Origin: a virus
DNA length: 42,053 bases
Direction: 5' to 3' (one strand)
Virus record (IMG/VR): IMGVR_UViG_3300029268_000040
Coordinates: 1 to 42,053 of that record
Positions 17,590 through 42,053 of this stretch are shown here, one piece after another. Each line of letters starts with the position of its first letter. The stretch's first letter is position 1. The notes under the pieces are model-generated. The model searched no databases, was not told the origin of the DNA, and saw nothing but the letters and a program-made list of their open reading frames with translations. The position numbers were made by a program, and so were the translations under genes.

Positions 17590-17943
17590 ATGAAGATGTA
17601 CGAGCAGCAGACAAGGTTCGCTAAAGATTTTTCGAATCTTATACAAAAAATTTTAAGCAGTGGTTTCTATGTAAGCATAGGTGAAGTTTACAGGACTCCT
17701 GAACAAGCTGAAATTTATGCTAAGCAGGGGAAAGGAATAAAGAATAGTTTGCATATAAAGAGACTTGCCGTTGATTTAAACCTCTTTACTCCAGAAGGAG
17801 AGTATCTTAGTGAAAGTAAAGATTATGAGCAGTTTGGCAAATATTGGGAATCGCTAGATAAACAAAATCGCTGGGGTGGTTTTTTCACTAAACGAGGCGG
17901 AAAAATTAATGATGGCGGTCATTTTGAGCGCGCTCCCGAATAA
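17590..17943 (+). CDS. Endolysin, M15-type peptidase (VanY / L-Ala-D-Glu peptidase-like)
   Basis: A 117-residue single-domain zinc peptidase expected to cut the peptide stem of peptidoglycan. Zinc-ligand pattern: SLHIKRLAVDLNLF (H55 and D62), and NDGGHFE near the end (D108, H111, E113). R35 in YRTPEQA precedes them, as in the family. It has no signal peptide, so it depends on a holin. A second ATG two codons in is possible. It starts the lysis cluster. Confidence 0.9.
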   Translation: MKMYEQQTRFAKDFSNLIQKILSSGFYVSIGEVYRTPEQAEIYAKQGKGIKNSLHIKRLAVDLNLFTPEGEYLSESKDYEQFGKYWESLDKQNRWGGFFTKRGGKINDGGHFERAPE

Positions 17944-18241: not shown

Positions 18242-18805
18242 ATGATAAAAAAAGAAGATTGCAAAAGATTCGAAAAATTCTTTGATAAAAATGACAATAA
18301 TTGCTGGGTATGGAAAGGTGCTTATGTAGGTGGTTATCATGTAGGTGGTGGTTATGGAGGCTTTGCTTATAAAGGAAGAGTAGTCAGGGCTCATAGGTTC
18401 TCTTATGAGCTTTACAAGGGAAAGATTTCGGAAGGAATGCTTGTTTGCCATCATTGTGATAATAGAAAATGTGTTAATCCATCACATCTATTTCTTGGCA
18501 CGCACAAAGATAATGCAAAAGACAGGGACAATAAAGGAAGATATTCTAGTGCTAAAGGAAGAATATGTTCAAAAGAAACCAAGATCAAAATAGGAAAAGC
18601 TAATACTGGTAGACCAAAGACACCGGAATTATTGGAAGTAATAAGTAAAAACCAACTTAGACTGTGGGCTGATCCTATATATAGAAAAAAAATGATTAAA
18701 GCACATATTGGTAAAAAACTTTCTCTTGAGCATCGACGGAAAATGAGTGAGGCGCAAAGTGAACGAAGAAGAAAAGAAGCAACGTCCAAAAACGAAATAT
18801 GTTGA
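18242..18805 (+). CDS. HNH homing endonuclease with NUMOD3-like repeats
   Basis: A 187-residue protein. An HNH_3 type core reads AHRFSYEL, LVCHHCDNRKCVNPSHLFLGTHKDNAKD (H70/H71, N79, H82; C72 and C77). Two NUMOD3-like DNA-binding helices follow: TKIKIGKANTGRP and IGKKLSLEHRRKMSEAQ. Free-standing HNH genes of this kind are mobile and insert between late genes. Its last 47 bases overlap the start of the next gene, so it may have inserted into or captured the holin upstream region. It is unrelated in sequence to the HNH gene inside the terminase intein except for the core motif. Confidence 0.9.
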   Translation: MIKKEDCKRFEKFFDKNDNNCWVWKGAYVGGYHVGGGYGGFAYKGRVVRAHRFSYELYKGKISEGMLVCHHCDNRKCVNPSHLFLGTHKDNAKDRDNKGRYSSAKGRICSKETKIKIGKANTGRPKTPELLEVISKNQLRLWADPIYRKKMIKAHIGKKLSLEHRRKMSEAQSERRRKEATSKNEIC

Positions 18806-19052: not shown

Positions 19053-19272
19053 CATTCTGGCAATATTATCAGCTATTGGTGCAGCTATCTTTGGTCTGTT
19101 AGTTACATTTCTTTATGGTAAGAATAAAGGTAAGAAAGACGAGCAAATCGAGCAATTGAAGATGAATGTTGAACAGGCTGCAAGCATTAAAAAACAGAAT
19201 GACAATATAGACAGATTGGGTGTTTCAGAGATTAGAGAAAAGATGAAGAAGGAGTTTTCAAGTGAAAATTAG
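19045..19272 (+). CDS. Probable i-spanin (Rz-like)
   Basis: A 75-residue protein starting at the ATG at 19045, with GGAG 9 bases upstream; the longer in-frame ATG at 19024 lacks a site. It has one N-terminal transmembrane helix (ILAILSAIGAAIFGLLVTFLYG), a lysine-rich boundary, then a polar coiled coil to the end. That is the plan of inner-membrane spanins. The next gene, a lipoprotein, starts 11 bases before its stop, as in overlapping Rz/Rz1 pairs. Confidence 0.75.
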   Translation: MNNILAILSAIGAAIFGLLVTFLYGKNKGKKDEQIEQLKMNVEQAASIKKQNDNIDRLGVSEIREKMKKEFSSEN

Positions 19273-23287: not shown

Positions 23288-23503
23288 TTATTTTTTTAAT
23301 AATTTTATTTTTTCTTGAAGTGAGGAAATAAAACTGTAGACAAAAACATCTTTTGTTATGCCATCGTGTGAATTTCCTTCATATCTTTTAAAAGAATCTT
23401 TGAAATCTAGGGTCATTGCCTCGATTGATTCTACCGGATTTGACGCAAATAAAACTCGATTTTGGAGCTTGATTTGGTCTGAATATTGTAGTTTTGTTGC
23501 CAT
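23288..23503 (-). CDS. First gene of the leftward early operon, hypothetical
   Basis: A 71-residue protein with AGGAAAC before the ATG. It is mostly helical with no recognised motif. It lies about 75 bases downstream of the predicted start of the repressed leftward promoter, and 18 bases before the annealing-protein gene, so it is probably co-transcribed with the recombination genes. Confidence 0.7.
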   Translation of the reverse strand: MATKLQYSDQIKLQNRVLFASNPVESIEAMTLDFKDSFKRYEGNSHDGITKDVFVYSFISSLQEKIKLLKK

Positions 23504-23554
23504 TTTTTGTTTCCTGTTTTTCCTGAATTTTATTAAACTTTTATAATATTTCTA

Positions 23555-23657
23555 ATAACACATGTTATTATTTACAACGACAGAAATATAACACTTGTTA
23601 TTGGATATGTCAACTATAAGTAATAATATTTGCATTGCAAATTATAACAGATGTGAT
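23555..23657. promoter_or_regulatory. Repressor operator cluster, three ATAACA-N2-TGTTAT sites
   Basis: Site 1 is at 23555-23568 (ATAACACATGTTAT), site 2 at 23588-23601 (ATAACACTTGTTAT), and site 3 at 23644-23657 (ATAACAGATGTGAT, one mismatch). Sites 1 and 2 are perfect 6-2-6 palindromes 33 bp apart, close to three helical turns. Site 2 lies in the spacer of the leftward promoter, and site 3 in the spacer of the rightward repressor promoter. The same palindrome recurs at 29526. Binding by the adjacent XRE protein is inferred. Confidence 0.85.
23585..23613 (-). promoter_or_regulatory. Leftward early promoter with internal operator
   Basis: On the minus strand: TTGACA (23608-23613), 17-bp spacer, TATATT (23585-23590). 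The perfect operator 23588-23601 covers the end of the spacer and half of the -10 box, so a bound repressor would block polymerase. It faces the recombination operon. Confidence 0.85.
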
Positions 23658-23662
23658 ATATT
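23635..23662 (+). promoter_or_regulatory. Repressor promoter with internal operator
   Basis: TTGCAA (23635-23640), 16-bp spacer, TATATT (23657-23662). The third, imperfect operator fills the spacer, so the repressor probably limits its own synthesis. Confidence 0.65.
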
Positions 23663-23687
23663 TTCTGATAAACAGCTGGAGAAAAAA

Positions 23688-23930
23688 ATGGTAGACAAGA
23701 TTAAAATTGGATTTGATCCAGATAAAACAATAATTAAACAGATTCGAGAAACCGTCCGTTTGTCACAGGCAAAACTTGCCAAATTATTGAATGTTTCCCA
23801 ACCTCTGATTGCCTATCTTGAACGCAAAAGAAGTAAGATTAATTTGAATAAAGCGGTCGAGTTGGTGGCTGTCGCAGCAAAGCTTAATATTATTATAAAA
23901 ATAGATGATATTAAGAAAGATTATTTCTAG
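23688..23930 (+). CDS. XRE-family transcriptional repressor (Cro/HipB-like)
   Basis: An 80-residue protein starting at the ATG at 23688, with GGAG 8 bases upstream; a longer in-frame ORF back to 23595 would run through the promoter and operators. The helix-turn-helix reads LSQAKLAKLLNVSQPLIAYLER (about residues 25-46). There is no C-terminal autocleavage domain, so it is not LexA/CI-like and should not respond directly to RecA. It is divergent from the recombination operon across a three-site operator region and may also control the 29.5-kb promoter. A HipB-like antitoxin is an alternative, but no toxin gene accompanies it. Confidence 0.85.
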   Translation: MVDKIKIGFDPDKTIIKQIRETVRLSQAKLAKLLNVSQPLIAYLERKRSKINLNKAVELVAVAAKLNIIIKIDDIKKDYF

Positions 23931-23938
23931 TTTCAATA

Positions 23939-23967
23939 TTGACATAAGTTCCTTGTAGGATGATAAT
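23939..23967 (+). promoter_or_regulatory. Rightward promoter of leader-RNA copy 1
   Basis: TTGACA (23939-23944), 17-bp spacer, GATAAT (23962-23967). The -10 is part of TGATAATT (23961-23968), which has its inverted partner AATTATCA at 23988-23995. The copy at 24743 has the same plan, so a shared regulator may bind both. Confidence 0.8.
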
Positions 23968-24002
23968 TGTTGCTGCGAGCTTTACGAAATTATCAGAAAT
24001 TA

Positions 24003-24123
24003 AGAGTGTTTATAGTGAGGTGTTTAAGGTGCATCAAATCCCGTCTCCAATGACAGGTTAAAGTTCGCACTTCAAATCACCTTGGCACCTCACTATAAGC
24101 ATTCGACCTAACAAGGAATGCTT
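24003..24123 (+). ncRNA. Structured leader RNA, copy 1 (candidate cis element or small RNA)
   Basis: A 13-bp stem closes the element: 24010-24022 (TTATAGTGAGGTG) with 24086-24098. Inside, GTGC (24029-24032) pairs with GCAC (24067-24070), enclosing the conserved GTGCATCAAATCC and GGTT(A)AA. AAGGTG (24026-24031) can instead pair with CACCTT (24078-24083), so two folds compete. After the closing stem, TAAGCATTC (24096-24104) can pair with GAATGCTTA and trap the AAGGA ribosome-binding site. Downstream lie only a 15-codon ORF and a terminator, so it may act in trans. The class is unrecognised. Confidence 0.7.
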
Positions 24124-24171
24124 ATGGCAATATCTAAGAAGCTTCGCTTAATAATTATTTGGACGTCGTAA
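24124..24171 (+). CDS. 15-codon ORF behind leader copy 1
   Basis: ATG with a good AAGGA site 6 bases upstream, encoding a 15-residue peptide ending IIIWTS. It occupies the same place as the start of the replication gene behind leader copy 2 (both have AAGGAATGCTTATG). It could be a leader peptide, a remnant of a duplicated gene start, or simply untranslated. A terminator follows 38 bases later. Confidence 0.35.
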   Translation: MAISKKLRLIIIWTS

Positions 24172-24208
24172 AGAAGAGTTATATTATTCTTTTTGCCGAT
24201 TTTTTCAG

Positions 24209-24241
24209 AACCCAGTTTGCCGCTAAGCGCTGGGTTTTTTG
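24209..24241 (+). terminator. Terminator of the leader-copy-1 transcript
   Basis: AACCCAG pairs with CTGGGTT around an inner CGC-TAA-GCG hairpin, followed by TTTTG. It would end a transcript of roughly 265 nt from the promoter at 23939. Confidence 0.8.
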
Positions 24242-24250
24242 TTTTATTGT

Positions 24251-24460
24251 TCACTGCATTTCCTCCTTGTGACCGTCAATCCATGCATCAAATTGCTCCA
24301 AGTTAATAAGCACTTTTGACCCAATCCTCCGCAAGCACTTCTCTAGTCCGTTTTGTTTGGAATTGAAAATCAAGTAACGAAGAGATCCCTCGCTAAAAGA
24401 TTTGTATATCTCAGCCGTTTGTCGAACAGTCGCCCATTTTTGTTGTTTTGTCTCAGTCAT
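24251..24460 (-). CDS. Excisionase/AlpA-like DNA-binding protein
   Basis: A 69-residue protein with GGAG 6 bases before the ATG. WATVRQTAEIYKSFSEGSLRYLIF and CLRRIGSKVLINLEQFDAWID match the winged HTH_17 (excisionase or MerR-like) pattern: a first HTH helix pair and a terminal wing (RRIG..VLIN...FDAWI). It faces leftward between the two leader RNAs. With no integrase gene nearby, it is more likely a regulator of the replication or leader promoters than a true excisionase. Confidence 0.75.
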   Translation of the reverse strand: MTETKQQKWATVRQTAEIYKSFSEGSLRYLIFNSKQNGLEKCLRRIGSKVLINLEQFDAWIDGHKEEMQ

Positions 24461-24490
24461 AGAAGCTCCTTAAATTAATAATTATTAAAG

Positions 24491-24513
24491 GCAGCAATCC
24501 GTAGGATTGTTGC
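24491..24513. promoter_or_regulatory. 10-bp inverted repeat upstream of the AlpA-like gene
   Basis: GCAGCAATCC, GTA, GGATTGTTGC: 10 pairs with one G-T. It has no T-tract on either side, so it is more likely an operator or an RNA hairpin than a terminator. It lies 31 bases before the AlpA-like start codon. Confidence 0.5.
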
Positions 24514-24742
24514 GATGTGTGGAGCGTAATTGAAAAATAGGGTAAAAAATATGCGATCAGGGAATTATCAAGGAATCAGGGAACAATATGGAATTATCGA
24601 AAAATGACTAGATGTGGAAAACCCGGGCAATGGGCTCATGAATCAATCTTGCCACCGAAATTAAATTCGCCTTTACTAAACAATCGAATCTTATTTGAAA
24701 TGGTTTTTCTTCCCCATTTTCCAGTCTTCAGTGAAATTTAAT
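24514..24742. other. Gene-free stretch before the replication promoter
   Basis: No supported gene here. AATTATCA occurs at 24563-24570 and nearly again at 24592-24599 (ends CG), the same octamer that flanks both leader promoters as an inverted pair. Tiny ORFs, such as 18 codons from 24551, have no good support. Confidence 0.5.
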
Positions 24743-24771
24743 TTGACTTAAGCATAAGGCAGAATGATAAT
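24743..24771 (+). promoter_or_regulatory. Replication-operon promoter (leader copy 2)
   Basis: TTGACT (24743-24748), 17-bp spacer, GATAAT (24766-24771). The layout matches the copy at 23939, including TAAG after the -35 and the TGATAATT/AATTATCA pair (24765-24772 and 24788-24795) astride the expected start. Confidence 0.8.
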
Positions 24772-24804
24772 TGAGCTGCAAAGATTTAATTATCAAACTA
24801 CAAT

Positions 24805-24935
24805 GTGTTTAGCGAAGTGCTTTAGGTGCATCAAATCCGTTCTTCTAGAATGGTTGAATCTTTGCACTCTGGCCTTGATAAAGCTAGAAACCTAAAACAC
24901 CTGAGCACTTCGCTAAGCGCACATAAGGAATGCTT
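24805..24935 (+). ncRNA. Structured leader RNA, copy 2, of the replication operon
   Basis: The closing stem is 24809-24821 (TTAGCGAAGTGCT) with 24904-24916, again 13 bp but different in sequence from copy 1: compensatory change. GTGC (24826-24829) pairs with GCAC (24864-24867); CCGTTC and GAATGG form an inner hairpin. Conserved unpaired core: CATCAAATCC and GGTTGAA. AGGTG can alternatively pair with CACCT (24898-24902). TAAGC at the end of the closing stem can pair with GCTTA around the AAGGA site. This arrangement suggests translational switching of the replication gene; no ligand is known. Confidence 0.75.
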
Positions 24936-25289
24936 ATGTCAAGTTTTTTTATGAATGAAGAATGTGTTTTTGTTTCTCCTTCTCTTGCTTCATTAATTGG
25001 TTTAAGTGAAGCTATCCTTTTGCAAAAATTAGAAACTTTGATATCAAATTCAAAAGACAAAGAACAAGCTTGTTATTCAGTCCCAGATTTAGAAAAACAT
25101 CTCCCTTTTTGGTCACGTAATACTATCAAATCATTAATCTATCATCTTCAAAAATCAAAATTTATTTTTGTGGAGAAAAATTTTAATAGAGGAGAAATCG
25201 CAGAATGTTTTTATAAAATTAATTTTGCCGAGCTTGAGAGGATTATAAAAATCTCAAAAATAACGGAAAATGATATTCAAATGATTTGA
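24936..25289 (+). CDS. Winged-helix replication-region protein
   Basis: A 117-residue protein. The ATG at 24936 is chosen over the ATG at 24930 because the AAGGA site is then 6 bases away. VFVSPSLASLIGLSEAILLQKLETLI followed by SVPDLEKHLPFWSRNTIKSLIYHL is the pattern of phage replication-protein N-terminal domains, a winged helix that usually binds origin DNA or a helicase. It lacks a second domain and may act with the initiator downstream. It is translated from the leader-RNA site. Confidence 0.75.
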   Translation: MSSFFMNEECVFVSPSLASLIGLSEAILLQKLETLISNSKDKEQACYSVPDLEKHLPFWSRNTIKSLIYHLQKSKFIFVEKNFNRGEIAECFYKINFAELERIIKISKITENDIQMI

Positions 25290-25339: not shown

Positions 25340-26194
25340 ATGCTTAAACAGAAAAAGGGAACGTTTTGCAATGTTCCTCTTAAGATGATTGAGGGGTTTC
25401 CTCCTATGCGCCAAACGGTTTTTTCATGGCTTTGTTTTCATGCTGATAAAAAGATGCGATGTTTCCCTTCCATTGAATTACTATGCCAAGAATGTGGCTC
25501 CAAAAGAACTGCGGTTATAGAAGCTATAAAATATTTGGAAGGGGTCGGTTATTTAAAGAAAAAAAGAAGACGAAATGCAAGTACTATTTATCAAATTATT
25601 ATTAAAGATATGGAAATAAAAGTTACAAATTCAGATGATGACAAAAAGTTATCCACAGAAGATTCAGGAAGTCCGTTAAACGGACATCCTGAAGATTTAG
25701 GAAGTCCGTTTAACGGACCCCGGAAGTCCGTTAAACGGACTCTAACTATACTCACTGAACTAAATCCATTAAAAGATACTCACCCCGATTTTTCAAAAAC
25801 GGAAAAATTGGGGTGTCTTTCTCTTTTTGATTTTTTTTGGAAAGCATACCCAGTAAAAAGATCAAAAGAGGCTGCCAATAAGATTTTTAATAAATTAAAA
25901 ATAGATGAAATTTTATTGCAGGAGATTTTAGAATCTATAAAACTTCAAAAAGAGGAAAGAAAAAATTCAAAAGAAAAAAAAGAACTTGTTCCGGCTTGGA
26001 TGAATCCGGGAACATGGCTTAAAAATAAACGTTGGACTGATGAGCGTCCCGAGCCAAAGAAAAAAGATGAGTTTCATACAGCAAGTCCGCCAGTCCCAAA
26101 AACTGCAGAGCGAATTAAAAGCGCCGAGGTTGGCATCAATGCAATGAAAGAAATAATAGGGGGGCTCCCTAATGCAAAATCAAGCAAATGTTGA
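25340..26194 (+). CDS. Replication initiator, lambda O-like
   Basis: A 284-residue protein. Residues about 20-90 form a winged helix (QTVFSWLCFHADKKMRCFPS, RTAVIEAIKYLEGVGYLKKK). A hinge (about 105-135) is encoded by the origin iterons. The C-terminal domain (about 162-240) has LFDFFWKAYPVKRSKEAA and PAWMNPGTWLKNKRWTDE, the usual ending of phage O-like proteins that recruit helicase. No phage helicase or loader gene is visible, so host proteins are probably used. GGAAGTGGT precedes the ATG. Confidence 0.85.
   Translation: MLKQKKGTFCNVPLKMIEGFPPMRQTVFSWLCFHADKKMRCFPSIELLCQECGSKRTAVIEAIKYLEGVGYLKKKRRRNASTIYQIIIKDMEIKVTNSDDDKKLSTEDSGSPLNGHPEDLGSPFNGPRKSVKRTLTILTELNPLKDTHPDFSKTEKLGCLSLFDFFWKAYPVKRSKEAANKIFNKLKIDEILLQEILESIKLQKEERKNSKEKKELVPAWMNPGTWLKNKRWTDERPEPKKKDEFHTASPPVPKTAERIKSAEVGINAMKEIIGGLPNAKSSKC
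25649..25740. other. Predicted replication origin inside the initiator gene
   Basis: A perfect DnaA box TTATCCACA lies at 25649-25657. Three 15-bp palindromic iterons follow: 25671-25685 and 25726-25740 (GTCCGTTAAACGGAC) and 25704-25718 (GTCCGTTTAACGGAC). Start-to-start distances are 33 and 22 bp, multiples of 11, so all lie on one face of the helix. Each is preceded by GGAA or GAA. An AT-rich run follows to about 25860. This is the lambda ori layout. Confidence 0.85.
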
Positions 26195-28279: not shown

Positions 28280-28296
28280 TTAATCCTCCTTTATCT

Positions 28297-28331
28297 TGTT
28301 CAAATGAACAGTCTTCTTGTTCAAATGAACA
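28297..28331. promoter_or_regulatory. Two tandem palindromic operators TGTTCAAATGAACA
   Basis: Perfect 6-2-6 palindromes lie at 28297-28310 and 28318-28331, within an 18-base direct repeat. They are 21 bp apart (two helical turns). They lie 18 and 39 bases before the start codon of the leftward HTH gene, whose product is the obvious candidate ligand. Confidence 0.8.
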
Positions 28332-28383
28332 GTCCCTGGCATATGCTTCTAGTTTTTCATTTTGTCCCACGCCTAATCATGAA

Positions 28384-29394: not shown

Positions 29395-29520
29395 GATTTA
29401 GTTTCCTGTTTAAATTAAATTTCTGATTAAGTGTACTAGCTGCGCGATTGTTATATTCCTAAAATGTGCCCTTCTTTTATAACAACCTTTATAATTATTG
29501 TTATCACAGCTAGTAATGAG

Positions 29521-29549
29521 AGAATATAACAGTTGTTATAATATGTCAA
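29521..29549 (-). promoter_or_regulatory. Second leftward promoter with the repressor operator
   Basis: On the minus strand: TTGACA (29544-29549), 17-bp spacer, TATTCT (29521-29526). ATAACAGTTGTTAT (29526-29539) fills the spacer, the same palindrome as at 23555 and 23588. It would place the small-gene operon under the XRE repressor. Half-sites also occur at 29479 and 29499. Confidence 0.8.
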
Positions 29550-32236: not shown

Positions 32237-34903
32237 ATGCTTACCCGCGAAATGTCAAAGCTGATGAAGCGTGTGGAGTATGCGGCTTCGGTCAAAGAAA
32301 ATCACAATCAAGTTATTATAGACTTAGACAACTATACTATAATCGTTCCCGATTATCCCGAGCCTACAGTATATAGGCCTACATCTACGGCCCTAGCGTT
32401 CCACAGAGCAGATGATCGCGTACGGGTGATACGTGGGCACGTAGGCAGTGGTAAGTCAACCATGATGTGTGCAGAGATTGTATTCAGAGCGGTTAAGATG
32501 GCGGCATGTAAGGACGGGATAAGGCGGAGTAGGTGGGCTATTGTCCGTAATACCTACGGCGATTTAGCCAAGACAACATTAACCACGTGGAAGATGTGGT
32601 TTGCTAACCTAGGCTCGATGAGATGGAGGGAAGGAAAAAGCTTTACAATAGATCACACATTCAATGCTATTGTTAAACAAAATGGTACTGAAGAAACGCA
32701 CAAGGTAGAGATGCAATTGCTACCCATTGCATTAGATAACGTTAGTGACGTTACCAAGCATTTAAAATCACTCGAAGTTACGGGGGTATTTTTAAATGAA
32801 CTATCAGAACTTAATCGCATGGTGCTTGATTTCTTCTCTGGTGGCCGTCTTCCTCGGTTTCCTAGCCTTAAAGATATGCCCGAAGGTGTTGCGTACTGGT
32901 GCGGCATCTTTGCTGATACGAACCCACCTGAGGTTTCGAGCTGGATATATAAATTATTTGAAGTTGATAAGCCGCAAGAATATACAATGTTCGTACAGCC
33001 ACCAGCAGTATTGAAGGAGAATGATAAATATATAATTAACCCTAATGCGGAGAACCTTAAAAATATTCAAAATGGTGAGCAAGAATATATAAAGATGACT
33101 TGGGGCAAATCAGAAAGTTTTATACAAGTTTATCTTATGGGTGAATATGGAACGTTGAGTGATGAGAAAAGAGTCTATTATAGTTATAACGATGATATTC
33201 ATAGTAGTGATCATATCGTTATTGATTATAAATCACCTTTGATTATTGGCGTTGACCTAGGCACTGTTGCACCTGCTTTTATAATCGGACAGATGCAGGG
33301 GCCGGTGCTTGTTGGTATCAAAGAATTTTGCGGAGAGTTCACGACAATTAGGGAAATGTGTAATGATGCTGTAATGCCTTGGCTTCATGATAATTGCAAA
33401 GGGATGAGGCTTGGGGCGGTAGTGTTTGATATCGCGAAAACCGACCATGGCGATGTTCAGCTGCGCGAATTTTTCGGTTCTGTAGTTATTCCTGCGCAAA
33501 CTAATAATATTTCACAGAGAATAGACGCAGTAGCAAAACGTTTATCTCGTTTGTCACAGGGCAAGCCTTTACTTGTTATCAGTCGTTCTGGTTGTCCGGA
33601 ATTACGTAAAGGATTTAATGGAAAATATTATTATAGAAGAGTAAAAATAATTGGAGAAGAGAAATTTACAGAGGAACCTTACAAAAATCATCCATTCAGC
33701 GATTGTTTAATCGCTGGAACTAAAGTAATGATGGCCGATTGCTCAGAAATGAATATTGAAGATATAAAGCCCGATATGATGGTATTAACACCAAGCGGAG
33801 CACGCAAAGTAACCCATGCATGGTTGGCGCGAAAGAATGCAGTTGTTTATGAATATACGTTCAGTAATGGATCAACGTTAGTAGCTACGCCAGAGCATAA
33901 GATATTTACAGATCGTGGGTGGATAGAAATAAATAAGTTGACCATTAATGATATGTTATTAAGTATTAATAATAAGGGTTGCTCATGGTTAAAGTTGTTT
34001 GTAAATTTTGCAAAAAAGAACTTGAAACATCTCAATGGAAGATTAATCACGGCGAAGGAAAACATTGCTCGCGCAATTGTGCATTTGCGGGTAGAAGAAA
34101 AAAATATGGCATTGAGATTGACGATAAATGGTTCACGCTTAGTAGTAATGGAAAATATTATGAAAACAAAAATGGAAAAACCACAATTGAATTACATAGA
34201 TATATTTGGGAAAAATACAATGGGAAGATTCCAAAGAAGATGTGCATACATCACAAGGATGGTAACAGCCTTAATAATACCATTGAAAATTTGGAACTTA
34301 TGTCCACTATTGAACACAACCGTATGCATACAAAAGAACGATATATACAACATCCAGAGCTCAAAAAACATGCCCTTGATGCCGCTAGAACTTCGGGGAA
34401 GGCTTGGCATGGAACTAAAGAGGGTTTGGAGTGGCACAGCAAAAATGGTAAAAAATCTTGGCTTAAAAGAACAAAGAAAGTATTTAAATGTTGGAGATGT
34501 GGAAAAGAATATGAAGCTTATAGCGCAGGATATTGCTCCTCAGTTTGTAGTGAAAAAGAAAGATACAGAAAGCTTATTAATGATAAAGTTAAAAAATGCG
34601 TTATATGTAATAAAGAATTTTTTGTTCATAAACGTACAAAGACCAAAACATGTGGCCACACTTGTAGATACGCGCTTATGCTCAGAACTAAAAGACGTAT
34701 ACGATATAACGGTTGAAGATGAACATTGCTTTTTTGCTAATGGACTACTTGTACATAATTGTCACGACGCATGGCAGTATATTAATCTACATGTCAACTA
34801 TGAGACAGAATTATCGCATACATTTGATCCAAAGGCAGAAGCTCTAGAAAAGTGGGAATTTAAAAAGTTTAGGAATAAAGCCGATGGTGTGACAGGTTAT
34901 TAA
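32237..34903 (+). CDS. terL: Terminase large subunit interrupted by an intein
   Basis: An 888-residue precursor. The ATPase has Walker A GHVGSGKS (67-74) and Walker B VTGVFLNELSE (181-191). The RNase H-like nuclease has IIGVDLG (D340), GAVVFDIAK (D398) and a third acid in CHDAWQY (D844). The last motif is split: HPFSD, then the intein (residues 490-841), then CHDAWQY. Removing it leaves a 536-residue terminase of normal size. The intein site, inside a catalytic motif, is typical of inteins. An HNH gene lies in another frame within the intein. The protein packages DNA through the portal and cuts the concatemer. Confidence 0.95.
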   Translation: MLTREMSKLMKRVEYAASVKENHNQVIIDLDNYTIIVPDYPEPTVYRPTSTALAFHRADDRVRVIRGHVGSGKSTMMCAEIVFRAVKMAACKDGIRRSRWAIVRNTYGDLAKTTLTTWKMWFANLGSMRWREGKSFTIDHTFNAIVKQNGTEETHKVEMQLLPIALDNVSDVTKHLKSLEVTGVFLNELSELNRMVLDFFSGGRLPRFPSLKDMPEGVAYWCGIFADTNPPEVSSWIYKLFEVDKPQEYTMFVQPPAVLKENDKYIINPNAENLKNIQNGEQEYIKMTWGKSESFIQVYLMGEYGTLSDEKRVYYSYNDDIHSSDHIVIDYKSPLIIGVDLGTVAPAFIIGQMQGPVLVGIKEFCGEFTTIREMCNDAVMPWLHDNCKGMRLGAVVFDIAKTDHGDVQLREFFGSVVIPAQTNNISQRIDAVAKRLSRLSQGKPLLVISRSGCPELRKGFNGKYYYRRVKIIGEEKFTEEPYKNHPFSDCLIAGTKVMMADCSEMNIEDIKPDMMVLTPSGARKVTHAWLARKNAVVYEYTFSNGSTLVATPEHKIFTDRGWIEINKLTINDMLLSINNKGCSWLKLFVNFAKKNLKHLNGRLITAKENIARAIVHLRVEEKNMALRLTINGSRLVVMENIMKTKMEKPQLNYIDIFGKNTMGRFQRRCAYITRMVTALIIPLKIWNLCPLLNTTVCIQKNDIYNIQSSKNMPLMPLELRGRLGMELKRVWSGTAKMVKNLGLKEQRKYLNVGDVEKNMKLIAQDIAPQFVVKKKDTESLLMIKLKNALYVIKNFLFINVQRPKHVATLVDTRLCSELKDVYDITVEDEHCFFANGLLVHNCHDAWQYINLHVNYETELSHTFDPKAEALEKWEFKKFRNKADGVTGY
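33704..34759 (+). mobile_element. Intein (352 residues) in terL with an out-of-frame HNH insert
   Basis: Block A: Cys1 in CLIAGTKVM. Block B: GSTLVATPEHKIFT (T62, H65). Blocks F and G: VYDITVEDEHCFFANGLLVHN, with His351 and Asn352, then Cys+1 of the extein. So all Hint splicing residues are present. In the intein frame, the 245 residues between blocks B and F match no endonuclease; they read through the region where a separate frame encodes the HNH protein. The frame stays open throughout, so splicing should still be possible. Confidence 0.92.
33985..34716 (+). CDS. HNH homing endonuclease encoded out of frame inside the intein
   Basis: A 243-residue protein in the -1 (+2) frame of terL. The ATG at 33985 has AAGGG 6 bases upstream. 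CKFCKK and CSRNC form an N-terminal zinc finger; RYIWEKYNG precedes the HNH core CIHHKDGNSLNNTIENLELMSTIEHNRMH (H89, H90, N102, H111, H115). Two more Cys4 fingers follow (CWRCGK...CSSVC, CVICNK...CGHTC). The stop lies within intein block F. It would probably cut intein-less terL alleles and spread the element. Confidence 0.92.
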   Translation: MVKVVCKFCKKELETSQWKINHGEGKHCSRNCAFAGRRKKYGIEIDDKWFTLSSNGKYYENKNGKTTIELHRYIWEKYNGKIPKKMCIHHKDGNSLNNTIENLELMSTIEHNRMHTKERYIQHPELKKHALDAARTSGKAWHGTKEGLEWHSKNGKKSWLKRTKKVFKCWRCGKEYEAYSAGYCSSVCSEKERYRKLINDKVKKCVICNKEFFVHKRTKTKTCGHTCRYALMLRTKRRIRYNG

Positions 34904-34941: not shown

Positions 34942-37209
34942 ATGGGCATATTAAAATTTGATTATACGAGAGAGCAGTCGCAAGGTGGGGTTAAATATGA
35001 GCACAAAAAGGCAAATGTTGAGCTGTTAAAGAAGTATGCTTCTGAAGCAAACATAGCGCCATTATTAGATAATAACTTCCTTGCTCAATTAGGTACAGAT
35101 TTAGAGCGACAAGTAAGCGTTGATGATGACTCAAGATTAGAATGGATGGACAAGTACAATGGCGCCCTGGATATTGCACGTCAAAAGATTACAGTTAAAG
35201 AATATCCATTTGATAAAGCTTCCAATGTAAAACTCCCCCTCATTCTTCAAGGATGTGTACAGTTTAACGCACGCATAATGCCCGAAATTATTCAGAATAA
35301 TAAAACGGTATATGCTGCGATTAGCGGAACACCCACAATAGATGATGAACAATCAGCGCAACGGCTTAGTGATCACATGTCCCTTCAGACAATGAAAACA
35401 GTGGAAAACTGGGTTAGTGATACTGACAAGTTACTGATTGCCTTGCCTCTTGTGGGAACTGTTTTTAGAAAATGGTCGTATGATCCTATCATGCGTAAAC
35501 CCGCGTCTTTTTTATGTTTGCCTACTGAGATCATCATAAGTAACGATGTATCTTCGATTGAGAAAGCAGAGCGAATCACTCATGTTATAAGGATGTCGCG
35601 TAACGAAGTTATAGAACGAATTAAATTTGGTGTTTTTAGTGAAGATTGCTTGGACGGCCTCCCATTTGACAATGAATCAAGTGGCGTTCAAGTGGACAGT
35701 AACTATTCATCAGATGATGATGATAAAGAATTGCCATCAAGCATAGAAGATAGCCGGGATAATTATATATTGTGGGAAGTTTCTTGTTTTATGGACTTAG
35801 ACGATGATGGTTATTGTGAACCTTATACTGTTACTATCATGCGTAAAACAAAGAAAGTATGCCGAGTTGCTGCCCGCTTTGATGAAAGGGACTTTGTATT
35901 TAATGCTGAAGATGAATTAGTTAGGATCAATCCATCAATATATTATGCGGCGCATCACTTCTTGCCTTCTCCTGATGGCACTTTCTTAGGGATGGGTTTT
36001 GGTCAGATATTGTTACAGTTAAACAACGCCATTAACAGCGTTACGAATCAATTAATCGATTCTGGTACACTAGCTAACTTGCAAGGTGGATTCTTGAGCA
36101 AAGATTTAAGATTAAGAAAGGGCGAGATGCAGTTTAGCGCTGGAGAATGGAAACTTGTTAACTTTAGCGCTGGAATGGGAAGTTTATCCAACCATATATT
36201 CCCATTACCCTTTAAAGAACCATCACAAACGCTAATGTCATTGCTTCAATTCCTCGTAGATTTTGGGCGTCAGACTGCGAACATAAGTGATGTTCTGATG
36301 GGCAATCCACAATCTGCACAGATGCCGGCAACATCGGTAGTCACGCTGGTTGAGCAGGGTTCAAAGATATTTAGCAGTATATTGACAAGATTGTATGAAT
36401 CTTTAAGAAAAGAATTCACTATTTTGTTCAATATCAACAAAAAGTATTTGTCTTTATATCCTGAAAAGGATTTAATGACCAAAGCAGGGTTTATAACACA
36501 AAAAGACTATGAAAATGAAAGATTTAGCATTTATCCTATAGCAAATCCAGCCATGGGTATGGATGCTGTTCGATTGGCCAAACTGCAAGTTCTTATGCAG
36601 ATGGACACACCTTTGATTAATAGACGTGCAGTTATTATTAGATATTTAACAGCTTTGGGTATTCCGGAGCCTGAAAAGATTCTAACAGACGAGAAACAAT
36701 TAGCCCAACCAAGCGCGCAAGACTTGTTATTGCAGGCTCAAATCGAATTGGCTCATGCGCAAACTAGCGAAGCAAACATGCGAGCAGCCAAGATTATGCG
36801 CGATGGTGATTTGGATGCTATAAATGTTGGTTTAAAAGAAAAAGAAATTGAGATCAAAGCTATTTCCGAAGGAATTAAGGGAGCTATAGGCAAAGCTAAT
36901 GCCGTAGCGGCTTTAACAAGTGCGGAAAGCCGAGCCATGCCTCAAGATGTCAAGATTGCCGAAAACATAGTAGATGCAGAGGGCGCTAAAACTCAAATTC
37001 CTGTAGATATGAGCGGAATTAATCAGGCTATAGGATTGATACCACTTAAAGAGCCACAAATGGTTGCTCAACAACAAGCTCAACAACAAGCGCAGCAACA
37101 AGGTGGACAACTCCCACAAGGTGGTGGCGGTGGACAAGAACAAGGTGGCGCACCAGAATTGCCCCCTGAATTGCAGGCAATGCTTCAACAAATTGGGCAA
37201 GCAAAATAA
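34942..37209 (+). CDS. Portal protein
   Basis: A 755-residue protein. Portal features: a helical N-terminal part, KASNVKLPLILQGCVQFNARIMPEII, TVFRKWSYDP, the stem and clip region, and DVLMGNPQSAQMPATSVVTLVEQGSKIF followed by LYESLRKEF. The C-terminal 40 residues are Gln- and Gly-rich (QQAQQQAQQQGGQ). It forms the dodecameric DNA channel. It follows terL by 38 bases with GGAG upstream, and a hairpin terminator closes it. Size is like that of P22-type portals. Confidence 0.9.
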   Translation: MGILKFDYTREQSQGGVKYEHKKANVELLKKYASEANIAPLLDNNFLAQLGTDLERQVSVDDDSRLEWMDKYNGALDIARQKITVKEYPFDKASNVKLPLILQGCVQFNARIMPEIIQNNKTVYAAISGTPTIDDEQSAQRLSDHMSLQTMKTVENWVSDTDKLLIALPLVGTVFRKWSYDPIMRKPASFLCLPTEIIISNDVSSIEKAERITHVIRMSRNEVIERIKFGVFSEDCLDGLPFDNESSGVQVDSNYSSDDDDKELPSSIEDSRDNYILWEVSCFMDLDDDGYCEPYTVTIMRKTKKVCRVAARFDERDFVFNAEDELVRINPSIYYAAHHFLPSPDGTFLGMGFGQILLQLNNAINSVTNQLIDSGTLANLQGGFLSKDLRLRKGEMQFSAGEWKLVNFSAGMGSLSNHIFPLPFKEPSQTLMSLLQFLVDFGRQTANISDVLMGNPQSAQMPATSVVTLVEQGSKIFSSILTRLYESLRKEFTILFNINKKYLSLYPEKDLMTKAGFITQKDYENERFSIYPIANPAMGMDAVRLAKLQVLMQMDTPLINRRAVIIRYLTALGIPEPEKILTDEKQLAQPSAQDLLLQAQIELAHAQTSEANMRAAKIMRDGDLDAINVGLKEKEIEIKAISEGIKGAIGKANAVAALTSAESRAMPQDVKIAENIVDAEGAKTQIPVDMSGINQAIGLIPLKEPQMVAQQQAQQQAQQQGGQLPQGGGGGQEQGGAPELPPELQAMLQQIGQAK

Positions 37210-41185: not shown

Positions 41186-41250
41186 TTCCTACTTATTAAT
41201 TATCTTTCGAAGAAAGCGGCGTAATACGTCGTTAATAGGAGAATATATAT

Positions 41251-42053
41251 ATGAGTTATTCAGAATATCCGCATGGGTTTGCGCATGGTCTTACTGTTCG
41301 CGATATCCCTGTAAATATGGCTATTAATCCAAAAGCAAATGTGTTTTGGGTTGATAGTGTAAACGGTTCGAATTATAACAAAGGTACTTTTACTCGTCCA
41401 TTTGCAACATTGGCTTTTGCTGTTACACAATGTGTTGCATCTCAAGGTGATATTATTTATCTTGCTGCTGGTCATGCTGAAAGTGTAGTTGCTGCTTCAG
41501 GTGTTCTCTTTAATATCGCTGGGATGACTGTTATATTTTTAGGCGAAGGTACTAACAGAGCTCGCCTCACTTTTTCTACGCTAGTTTCTGCCGGCATCAC
41601 AATTAGTGCAGCTAATGTAACTTTAGTTAATCCATATTTTGTTACAAATATTGATGCATTAACAAGTCCAATTACGATTACTGGTGCTAATTGCCAAATT
41701 GTTAATGGTGAATGGCATGACGCTGCTGCTAAAGCTGCTACTGATTGTATTATCACATCAGCAGCTGCTACTGGTTTAAAAATAAATGGTTGGAAATATT
41801 TTGCTAGTACTACTGGTACACAGAAAAATAGCCAGATCAGATTACTTGGTGTTAATGATGCTGTATTAAGCAATATCGATATTGCAGGTGACTTCATTGT
41901 TGGTAATGTTAATAACTTAACTACTGCATGCTTAAATCTCCGCTTGGAAGACGTTAAGTTAAAGAACACTAATGCAACTCCAAAACCTGGTATTGTTCTT
42001 CAAGCAAACACCACTGGTATGGCAAAGAATGTTGATATTCGTATAGTTTCTGG
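41251..42053 (+). CDS. Repeat-rich virion surface protein, N-terminal 267 residues (continues at base 1)
   Basis: The ATG at 41251 follows AGGAGA. It starts MSYSEYPHGFAHGLTVRDIP. NVFWVDSVNGSNYNKGTFTRPFATL then VTQCVASQGDIIYLAAGHAESV is the entry motif of a right-handed beta-helix (pectate-lyase-like) fold seen in phage surface proteins; later rungs (VTLVNPYF, ITITGANCQIVNG, LKINGWKY) fit. No enzyme active site is seen. The frame runs across the contig ends into the 1-2923 part. Confidence 0.88.
   Translation, partial: MSYSEYPHGFAHGLTVRDIPVNMAINPKANVFWVDSVNGSNYNKGTFTRPFATLAFAVTQCVASQGDIIYLAAGHAESVVAASGVLFNIAGMTVIFLGEGTNRARLTFSTLVSAGITISAANVTLVNPYFVTNIDALTSPITITGANCQIVNGEWHDAAAKAATDCIITSAAATGLKINGWKYFASTTGTQKNSQIRLLGVNDAVLSNIDIAGDFIVGNVNNLTTACLNLRLEDVKLKNTNATPKPGIVLQANTTGMAKNVDIRIVS
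41919..42053. repeat. Terminal overlap identical to window start
   Basis: Matches bases 1-135 with one difference (41927 c, base 9 g). See the entry for 1-135. Confidence 0.95.

Follow-up and report, generated by a model that had tools for sequence, protein, structure and literature searches.

We found two related copies of a structured leader RNA in one virus genome, and it is probable that copy 1 is a working stand-alone RNA. As judged from its sequence, this copy is a complete transcription unit, comprising a promoter, the leader module, a ribosome site, a 15-codon open reading frame (ORF) and terminators. Copy 2 lies in front of a gene for a DnaD-like helicase loader. Our best explanation of the arrangement as a whole, which we put forward tentatively, is a structured-RNA pair in which copy 1 titrates a factor that binds the leader. 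The window, by which we mean the whole stretch of DNA analysed, is the entire IMG/VR virus record IMGVR_UViG_3300029268_000040 (42,053 bases). The two transcription units and their surroundings contain these elements:

23555–23657, + strand: three operator-like palindromes ATAACANNTGTTAT (at 23555, 23588 and 23644 with 1 mismatch)
23688–23930, + strand: small HTH_3 (Cro/CI-like) gene, 80 amino acids, upstream of copy 1
23939–23967, + strand: copy 1 promoter, TTGACA-17-GATAAT, sigma-70-type, 11/12, predicted +1 at about 23974
24113–24126, + strand: copy 1 ribosome site and start codon, AAGGAATGCTTATG, identical in copy 2
24124–24171, + strand: 15-codon ORF, ATG at 24124 to TAA at 24169–24171, no sign of selection
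24164–24205, + strand: first terminator-like hairpin with T6, folding-energy rank 3 of 112 T5 sites on the + strand
24207–24241, + strand: main terminator of copy 1, lowest folding energy, rank 1 of the 112 T5 sites on the + strand
24251–24460, − strand: small HTH_17-like gene facing copy 1, match below the Pfam cut-off
24743–24771, + strand: copy 2 promoter, TTGACT-17-GATAAT, 10/12, predicted +1 at about 24778
24925–24938, + strand: copy 2 ribosome site and start codon, identical to those of copy 1
24936–25289, + strand: DnaD-like helicase-loader gene under copy 2 (PHROG 6493, E 5e-14)

An open frame spans the ends of the record (41239 to 2920, i.e., 41239–42053 plus 1–2920), which have no exact end repeat. 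By eye, this frame resembles the one after the capsid gene of a related phage fragment, locus L129. Given a frame that crosses both ends and has this resemblance, the genome is probably complete in this record and closed as a circle. It encodes an intein-bearing terminase, a portal whose relatives carry the annotation head-to-tail connector, and a Cas4-type exonuclease within a leftward operon, together with the small HTH gene and two replication genes.

An earlier note on this DNA, made from the sequence, placed copy 1 directly after a repressor gene. The position is correct, as the HTH_3 gene ends 8 nt before the copy 1 promoter, but the term "repressor" is an inference from the three operator-like palindromes beside the gene, on which basis the HTH_3 protein is a putative repressor. 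No such palindrome, with up to 3 mismatches, overlaps the promoter of copy 1 or copy 2, and the nearest is at 23898 with 3 mismatches. Both promoters thus seem free of this repressor and may need some other control; a post-transcriptional layer would therefore be useful. A further exact operator palindrome, ATAACAGTTGTTAT, occurs at 29526, with two weaker ones at 29479 and 29491 (2 mismatches each). This region (29479–29539) is far from the immunity region, and its palindromes overlap a minus-strand promoter-like site starting at 29549, which is perhaps a second promoter under the same repressor.

Under a simple scoring rule, just one other site on the + strand of the window equals the 11/12 of the copy 1 promoter. 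The structured RNA of copy 1 starts at about the predicted +1, where the start sites of both copies are predictions from promoter sequence. From there (about 23974) to the terminators, the transcript would be about 230–265 nt long. This agrees with the previously proposed unit of about 265 nt with a 15-codon ORF and a strong terminator, as measured from the predicted +1 to 24241. The terminator is indeed strong, but it is not single; the hairpin with T6 just before it, at 24164–24205, had been overlooked. Folded together, the tandem terminators have z = −3.7, and a simple terminator scan listed neither hairpin. By simple rules, the promoter and the tandem terminators rank among the best in the genome. 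The claim that copy 1 has no gene to control also stands, in that the next gene (24251–24460) is read in the opposite direction. At the local base composition, an ORF would reach 15 or more codons by chance with a probability of about 0.32; its length is therefore no evidence for a peptide, and we rejected a peptide function. We also rejected a switch in which the 5′ tail of copy 1 pairs with the ORF, whose best helix (8 bp) is reached in 190 of 1,000 shuffles.

On the evidence of their alignment, the two copies are homologous beyond doubt. Their local alignment scores 60, compared with at most 28 in 500 shuffles, and none of 414 windows elsewhere reaches 60. Mean column identity is 69% in the longer alignment (A1) and 77% in the trimmed one (A2), i.e., the copies have diverged by 23–31%, and the homology ends, by eye, just past the start codon. 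The copies have in common a 15-nt block, the sequence flanking P1′ on its 3′ side, and the ribosome site together with its start codon. These runs could be what a shared binding partner would meet, which at 69–77% identity is suggestive and not proof. The positions of the block and of the predicted helices are as follows:

23974–23984, + strand: copy 1, P1 5′ strand, the first 11 nt of the predicted RNA, 11/11 paired with 24059–24069
24007–24031, + strand: copy 1, 5′ arm of P2, the long hairpin
24027–24041, + strand: copy 1, 15-nt block AGGTGCATCAAATCC, identical in both copies, forming the top of P2 and the joining strand J2/3
24040–24057, + strand: copy 1, P3, a small, weak hairpin with one mismatch, from the fold
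24059–24069, + strand: copy 1, P1 3′ strand, in the apical loop of P2
24078–24101, + strand: copy 1, 3′ arm of P2
24777–24787, + strand: copy 2, P1 5′ strand, paired with 24856–24866 and extendable to 17 bp
24804–24828, + strand: copy 2, 5′ arm of P2
24824–24838, + strand: copy 2, 15-nt block, identical to that of copy 1
24856–24866, + strand: copy 2, P1 3′ strand
24898–24921, + strand: copy 2, 3′ arm of P2

Both copies fold better than all of their 200 shuffles (z = −5.2 for copy 1 and −5.7 for copy 2). The folding program does not handle pseudoknots, and P1 was found separately, by searching the apical loop for segments able to pair with the 5′ tail. In both copies, P1 joins the 5′ end of the RNA to the apical loop of P2 and so crosses P2, giving a predicted pseudoknot. 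The 11-bp tail–loop helix of copy 1 is reached in 5 of 2,000 shuffles. For copy 2, none of 2,000 shuffles reaches its 17 bp, and 21 reach 11 bp or more. P2 has 23–24 bp, the module spans 128–145 nt, and the ribosome site follows 3–11 nt 3′ of P2. The J1/2 linkers are 22 and 16 nt long, presumably enough to run along a P2 of this length by rough geometry, and J2/3 has 8 nt. A helix P4 is present only in copy 2.

The strongest evidence for this fold comes from comparing the copies. All 34 equivalent pairs are intact in both, even though 12 have changed (8 double and 4 compatible single changes). In P1, 6 of the 11 equivalent pairs are unchanged, 4 are doubly changed and 1 has a compatible single change; in P2, the corresponding numbers for 23 pairs are 16, 4 and 3, and no pair is broken in either helix. 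Equivalence in P2 is based on its ungapped 5′ arm, and the count omits 24025 and 24026, which pair in one copy only, as well as three outer pairs found only in copy 1. When the 3′-strand changes are placed at random, all pairs survive in 30 of 200,000 trials for P1 and in 3 of 200,000 for P2. The comparison covers two sequences from one genome with no outgroup, such that changes are not assignable to either copy. Since every pair persists despite 12 changes, the result argues for two members of one structured RNA whose fold is under selection, and against the earlier suggestion that copy 1 could be a dead duplication.

If copy 1 were such a decaying remnant, the lack of a downstream gene and the chance length of the ORF would be expected, and there is no relative in which retention of copy 1 could be seen. 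However, a remnant would hardly show 8 double compensations with no broken pair, a result that the randomized trials rarely reproduce, or have a near-consensus promoter and tandem terminators. We therefore regard decay as quite unlikely. The proposal of a stand-alone small RNA, by contrast, gains support from the same promoter, terminators and conserved fold.

The P2 arms are near-perfect inverted repeats beside replication genes, and both strands fold well, so the feature might act as DNA, e.g., as a cruciform or a protein-binding inverted repeat such as an origin. With P1 left out, the energies of the other strand and the + strand are nearly equal for copy 1 (−44.6 versus −46.6) and further apart for copy 2 (−45.4 versus −56.8), as for inverted repeats. 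However, an inverted repeat has no need of a P1 that crosses P2. Moreover, the 35 pairs counted per copy on the + strand consist of 31 Watson–Crick and 4 G-U pairs, and the latter would be A-C on the opposite strand. Because all 35 are standard pairs on the + strand, 4 of them G-U, an RNA from this strand is favored. The similar position in both copies, after a promoter and before a start codon, also fits RNA better, and a purely DNA-level role appears very improbable.

The helix order P1-P2-P3-P1′-P4-P2′ is that of HDV-like ribozymes, and P1 is at the extreme 5′ end, raising the idea of a self-cleaving ribozyme that cuts at the 5′ end of P1. Against this, no HDV-type Rfam match was found at E-values up to 10, and the 11-bp P1, the 8-nt J2/3, the long J1/2 and the absence of P4 from copy 1 are at odds with the HDV core. 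The promoter already accounts for the 5′ end, and we give this idea almost no weight.

In copy 1, the start of P1 coincides with the predicted +1, in copy 2 it precedes that position by one base, and paired 5′ ends slow RNA decay in E. coli. The module might thus be nothing but a stability clamp, in which P1 buries the 5′ end and protects the replication mRNA; copy 1 would then be a by-product or a stable RNA with a target elsewhere. A simple 5′ hairpin would suffice for such a clamp, however, and the identical 15-nt block would be superfluous, which makes this an unlikely account of the whole module.

The earlier note also raised the possibility that copy 1 base-pairs with copy 2, which the energies disfavor. 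Cross-pairing gives −5.9 kcal/mol for the copy 2 tail with the copy 1 loop and −12.5 kcal/mol for the copy 1 tail with the copy 2 loop, whereas the proper P1 partners reach −15.6 and −19.4 kcal/mol. A duplex of the whole RNAs, calculated with their own folds ignored, has −77.2, which is weaker than their own folds together (−82.9 and −59). Pairing between the copies is disfavored because P1 has been re-matched within each copy, leaving the cross pairs weaker.

More generally, copy 1 could be an antisense-type small RNA acting on copy 2 or on another phage mRNA, in the style of P4 CI, c4 or OOP. The loop block shows partial complementarity to the HTH gene near its start (23709–23729), the copy 1 loop pairs with the start of the gene at 19262 at −18.5 kcal/mol, which 1.1% of 1,526 genome windows also attain, and the copy 1 tail has the −12.5 kcal/mol match to the copy 2 loop noted above. 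However, 47 phage gene starts were tried, so a best match at 1.1% is at chance level, and no start among them shows complementarity beyond chance. With the conserved block, the HTH gene is only 6th of the 47, and pairing as good as this occurs in about 11% of genome windows, on which grounds we rejected it as a target of the block. The P1 strands have, moreover, diverged together with their own partners. In phage immunity regions, the P4 CI RNA or c4 antisense RNA occurs as a structured RNA both in a leader and free. Here, by contrast, the copies pair poorly with each other and do not match Rfam, whose library includes the c4 family. An antisense role is accordingly improbable.

Leaders of IncI-type rep genes combine a pseudoknot with an antisense RNA. 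In the interval 23400–25100, there is no minus-strand promoter-like site between P2 of copy 2 and 25100 from which such an RNA could be made across the hairpin, and the nearest minus-strand site able to read across P2 of copy 1 (9/12, at 24620–24593) is about 480 nt away. Small phage RNAs of other kinds differ as well. According to the excerpt of PMC12197685, lambda OOP is likewise a small phage RNA tied to lysis/lysogeny and replication control, but it is antisense to cII, whereas copy 1 is on the same strand as the HTH and loader genes and overlaps neither. In Gifsy-1, IsrK is a short RNA from a prophage locus with its own promoter and terminator beside a regulated mRNA, and it binds its own read-through transcript (PMC4825925). 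The present copies differ, as they cross-pair weakly and copy 2 is preceded by a separate promoter.

The statement that copy 2 drives replication is borne out to the extent that the next gene encodes the DnaD-like loader and is followed by a replication-initiator-like gene. By tblastn, the helicase-loader gene has matches in 60 phage records (E up to 0.01). Within the replication-initiator-like gene, there are three repeats (25658–25740; 100, 93 and 79% over 28 nt) with the common palindrome GTCCGTT(A/T)AACGGAC, which are possible origin iterons judging by their sequence.

A decoy is a free RNA that has the same element as a regulated leader, and copy 1 shares with copy 2 the helices P1, P2 and P3 (the last weak in copy 1), together with the identical block and the ribosome site, but lacks P4. 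We infer that this common part could be the binding element. That copy 1 acts as a titrating decoy is, in our view, a possibility that falls short of being probable. The steps of the proposal are as follows. The RNA would fold co-transcriptionally, and its buried 5′ end would make it long-lived. One phage or host factor would bind the parts that are identical (J2/3 and the flank of P1′), and on the copy 2 module this factor would control how much helicase loader is produced. Copy 1, whose promoter is at least as near consensus and which is ended by two terminators, would supply the free module and titrate the factor. This titration might then set a threshold for replication. A more far-reaching and rather doubtful version is that the phage replication switch consists of an RNA and its own mimic, in which a co-evolving stand-alone twin soaks up a shared regulator and the ratio of the promoters sets the start of replication. 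If it were true, the module would found a new family of phage RNAs, and a free-standing leader paralogue beside the leader would offer a clean, testable case of titration within one virus. To our knowledge, few phage leader RNAs with a pseudoknot are known.

We rejected CsrA as the ligand, as the window has no CsrA match at E-values up to 1. A CsrA gene does occur in the related fragment (L129:317-511, minus strand; Pfam CsrA, E 2e-16). Folding did not reveal a translation switch shared by the copies, which hide the ribosome site with different partners. If folding is restricted to the sequence 3′ of P1′, the unpaired value of the ribosome site falls from 0.54 to 0.30 in copy 1 and stays at 0.31 in copy 2. 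In accessibility, these two sites are the 5th and 6th lowest among 48 chosen starts, which is only suggestive.

In its putative workings, the leader is comparable to Rli55 among decoy RNAs and to the T4 gene 32 operator among pseudoknot operators, but it was not shown to belong to any known RNA family. Rli55 of Listeria is a decoy non-coding RNA for the antiterminator EutV (PMC8079631, in excerpt). As described there, this separate non-coding transcript and nearby mRNA leaders have one type of binding element, and the transcript draws off their common factor. The EutV factor and a B12 riboswitch are established in that system, whereas the present RNA is from a phage and its factor is putative. 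The translational operator of gene 32 in T4 and RB69 has a folded part of about 28 nt, which is the recognition site for gp32 (PMC535899, in excerpt). Like our leader, it has a pseudoknot on the 5′ side of a ribosome site, and the phage gene concerned has a part in DNA replication; here, the evidence for the pseudoknot is the covariation of P1 and P2, at the level of sequence only. The present module differs in its span of 128–145 nt, in its P2 of 23–24 bp and in having a stand-alone copy. In the mainly open-access literature, we found no phage leader with a stand-alone twin of this kind among the top matches.

The main rival to titration is that the module is an antitermination element resembling put, EAR or nut. 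The nascent module would stay on RNA polymerase or recruit a factor, and the terminators would be passed. This is the chief rival because copy 1 occupies the place of nutR or putR in lambdoid phages: it comes after a cro-like gene and is followed by terminators and then by replication genes. It would also explain why the module is promoter-proximal in both transcripts, why two strong terminators come after copy 1 and why the gene order is HTH, module, terminators and replication genes. However, lambdoid phages have a left and a right antitermination site. HK022 putL and putR, two related structured RNAs that start early phage transcripts, are simple hairpins on the left and right transcripts. 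The present element, by contrast, is a pseudoknot, and in the window, covariance model R1 detects no copy other than the two rightward ones, besides the reverse strands of their hairpins. Moreover, there is no Rfam match (EAR is covered if it is in the library), and antitermination leaves the adjacent ribosome site and start codon unexplained. We consider this reading unlikely, if less so than the other alternatives. The passages of PMC4496710 deal with Nun and not with put.

We observed no third member of the leader module in the Rfam, phage, plasmid, viral and genome collections searched. With Rfam 15 covariance models, the whole window has no match at the gathering cut-off, and at E-values up to 10 the leader region (23900–25000) matches only two snoRNA families (E 1.8 and 8.6), far below their cut-offs. 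In the window, model R1 recovers the two copies at E < 1e-38 and the reverse strands of the same hairpins at 24.1 and 22.1 bits (E 0.003 and 0.009), followed by a match at E 0.23. Among 8 sources, it again finds the copies and the hairpin reverse strands (E 0.014 and 0.039), and the best match elsewhere is in L122 (E 2). It has no match in 9 loci or in 12 records, an empty answer that shows nothing alone, and a single match in one of 4 further records (E 0.86), which we took as chance. By blastn, copy 1 has no match in phages (E up to 1e-5) or plasmids (E up to 1), and copy 2 has none in either (E up to 1).

Pattern scans of viral contigs for the leader returned at least 119, 3 and 15 stretches, where the 15 coincide with loci among the at least 119. 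Among the matches listed, the 13-mer occurs 126 times, 11 of them with a flanking exact stem of at least 8; 6 of these 11 come from the two copies of the window, each encountered three times, and the remaining 5, with stems of 8–9 bp, were taken as chance. The hairpin is absent, by eye, from the 3 stretches of the second scan, and a strict leader pattern has no match in genome contigs. Since these scans demand exact short words, a diverged relative would escape them. With no relative found, the case is carried by two sequences only. Scans of viral contigs with single proteins gave confirmed stretches in 0 of 15, 1 of 7 (L122), 1 of 25 (L123), 1 of 3 (L129) and 1 of 2 (L130) cases, and the corresponding scan of genome contigs in 0 of 6. 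The closest phage found by terminase is L129, with 71% identity. It is silent on leader conservation, because it is 14 kb long and its gene order seems not to reach the leader region.

We now note other properties of the genome. The terminase (32237–34903, + strand) contains an intein (Pfam Intein_splicing, E 6e-16). Inside the terminase but in a different frame, there is an open frame for a 245-aa HNH endonuclease (HNH_3, E 3.5e-16; 33979–34716, + strand), which overlaps it by 738 bases. The L129 terminase ORF (536 aa) has no such insert. An intein with its homing endonuclease encoded out of frame is, as far as we know, unusual. A free-standing HNH/NUMOD3 homing endonuclease (18242–18805) occurs near a peptidase-like gene (17590–17943, below the Pfam cut-off). 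At 28294–28334, there is a perfect 20-nt tandem repeat, TCTTGTTCAAATGAACAGTC, which contains the inverted repeat GTTCA-AA-TGAAC. Finally, the portal (34942–37209) has relatives with 25–26% identity on plasmids NZ_CP133271.1, CP113869.1 and AP017967.1 of the endosymbionts Bealeia and Megaera. Capsid and GroES-like genes adjoin the portal relative on the Bealeia plasmid, and these plasmids are possible phage-plasmids.
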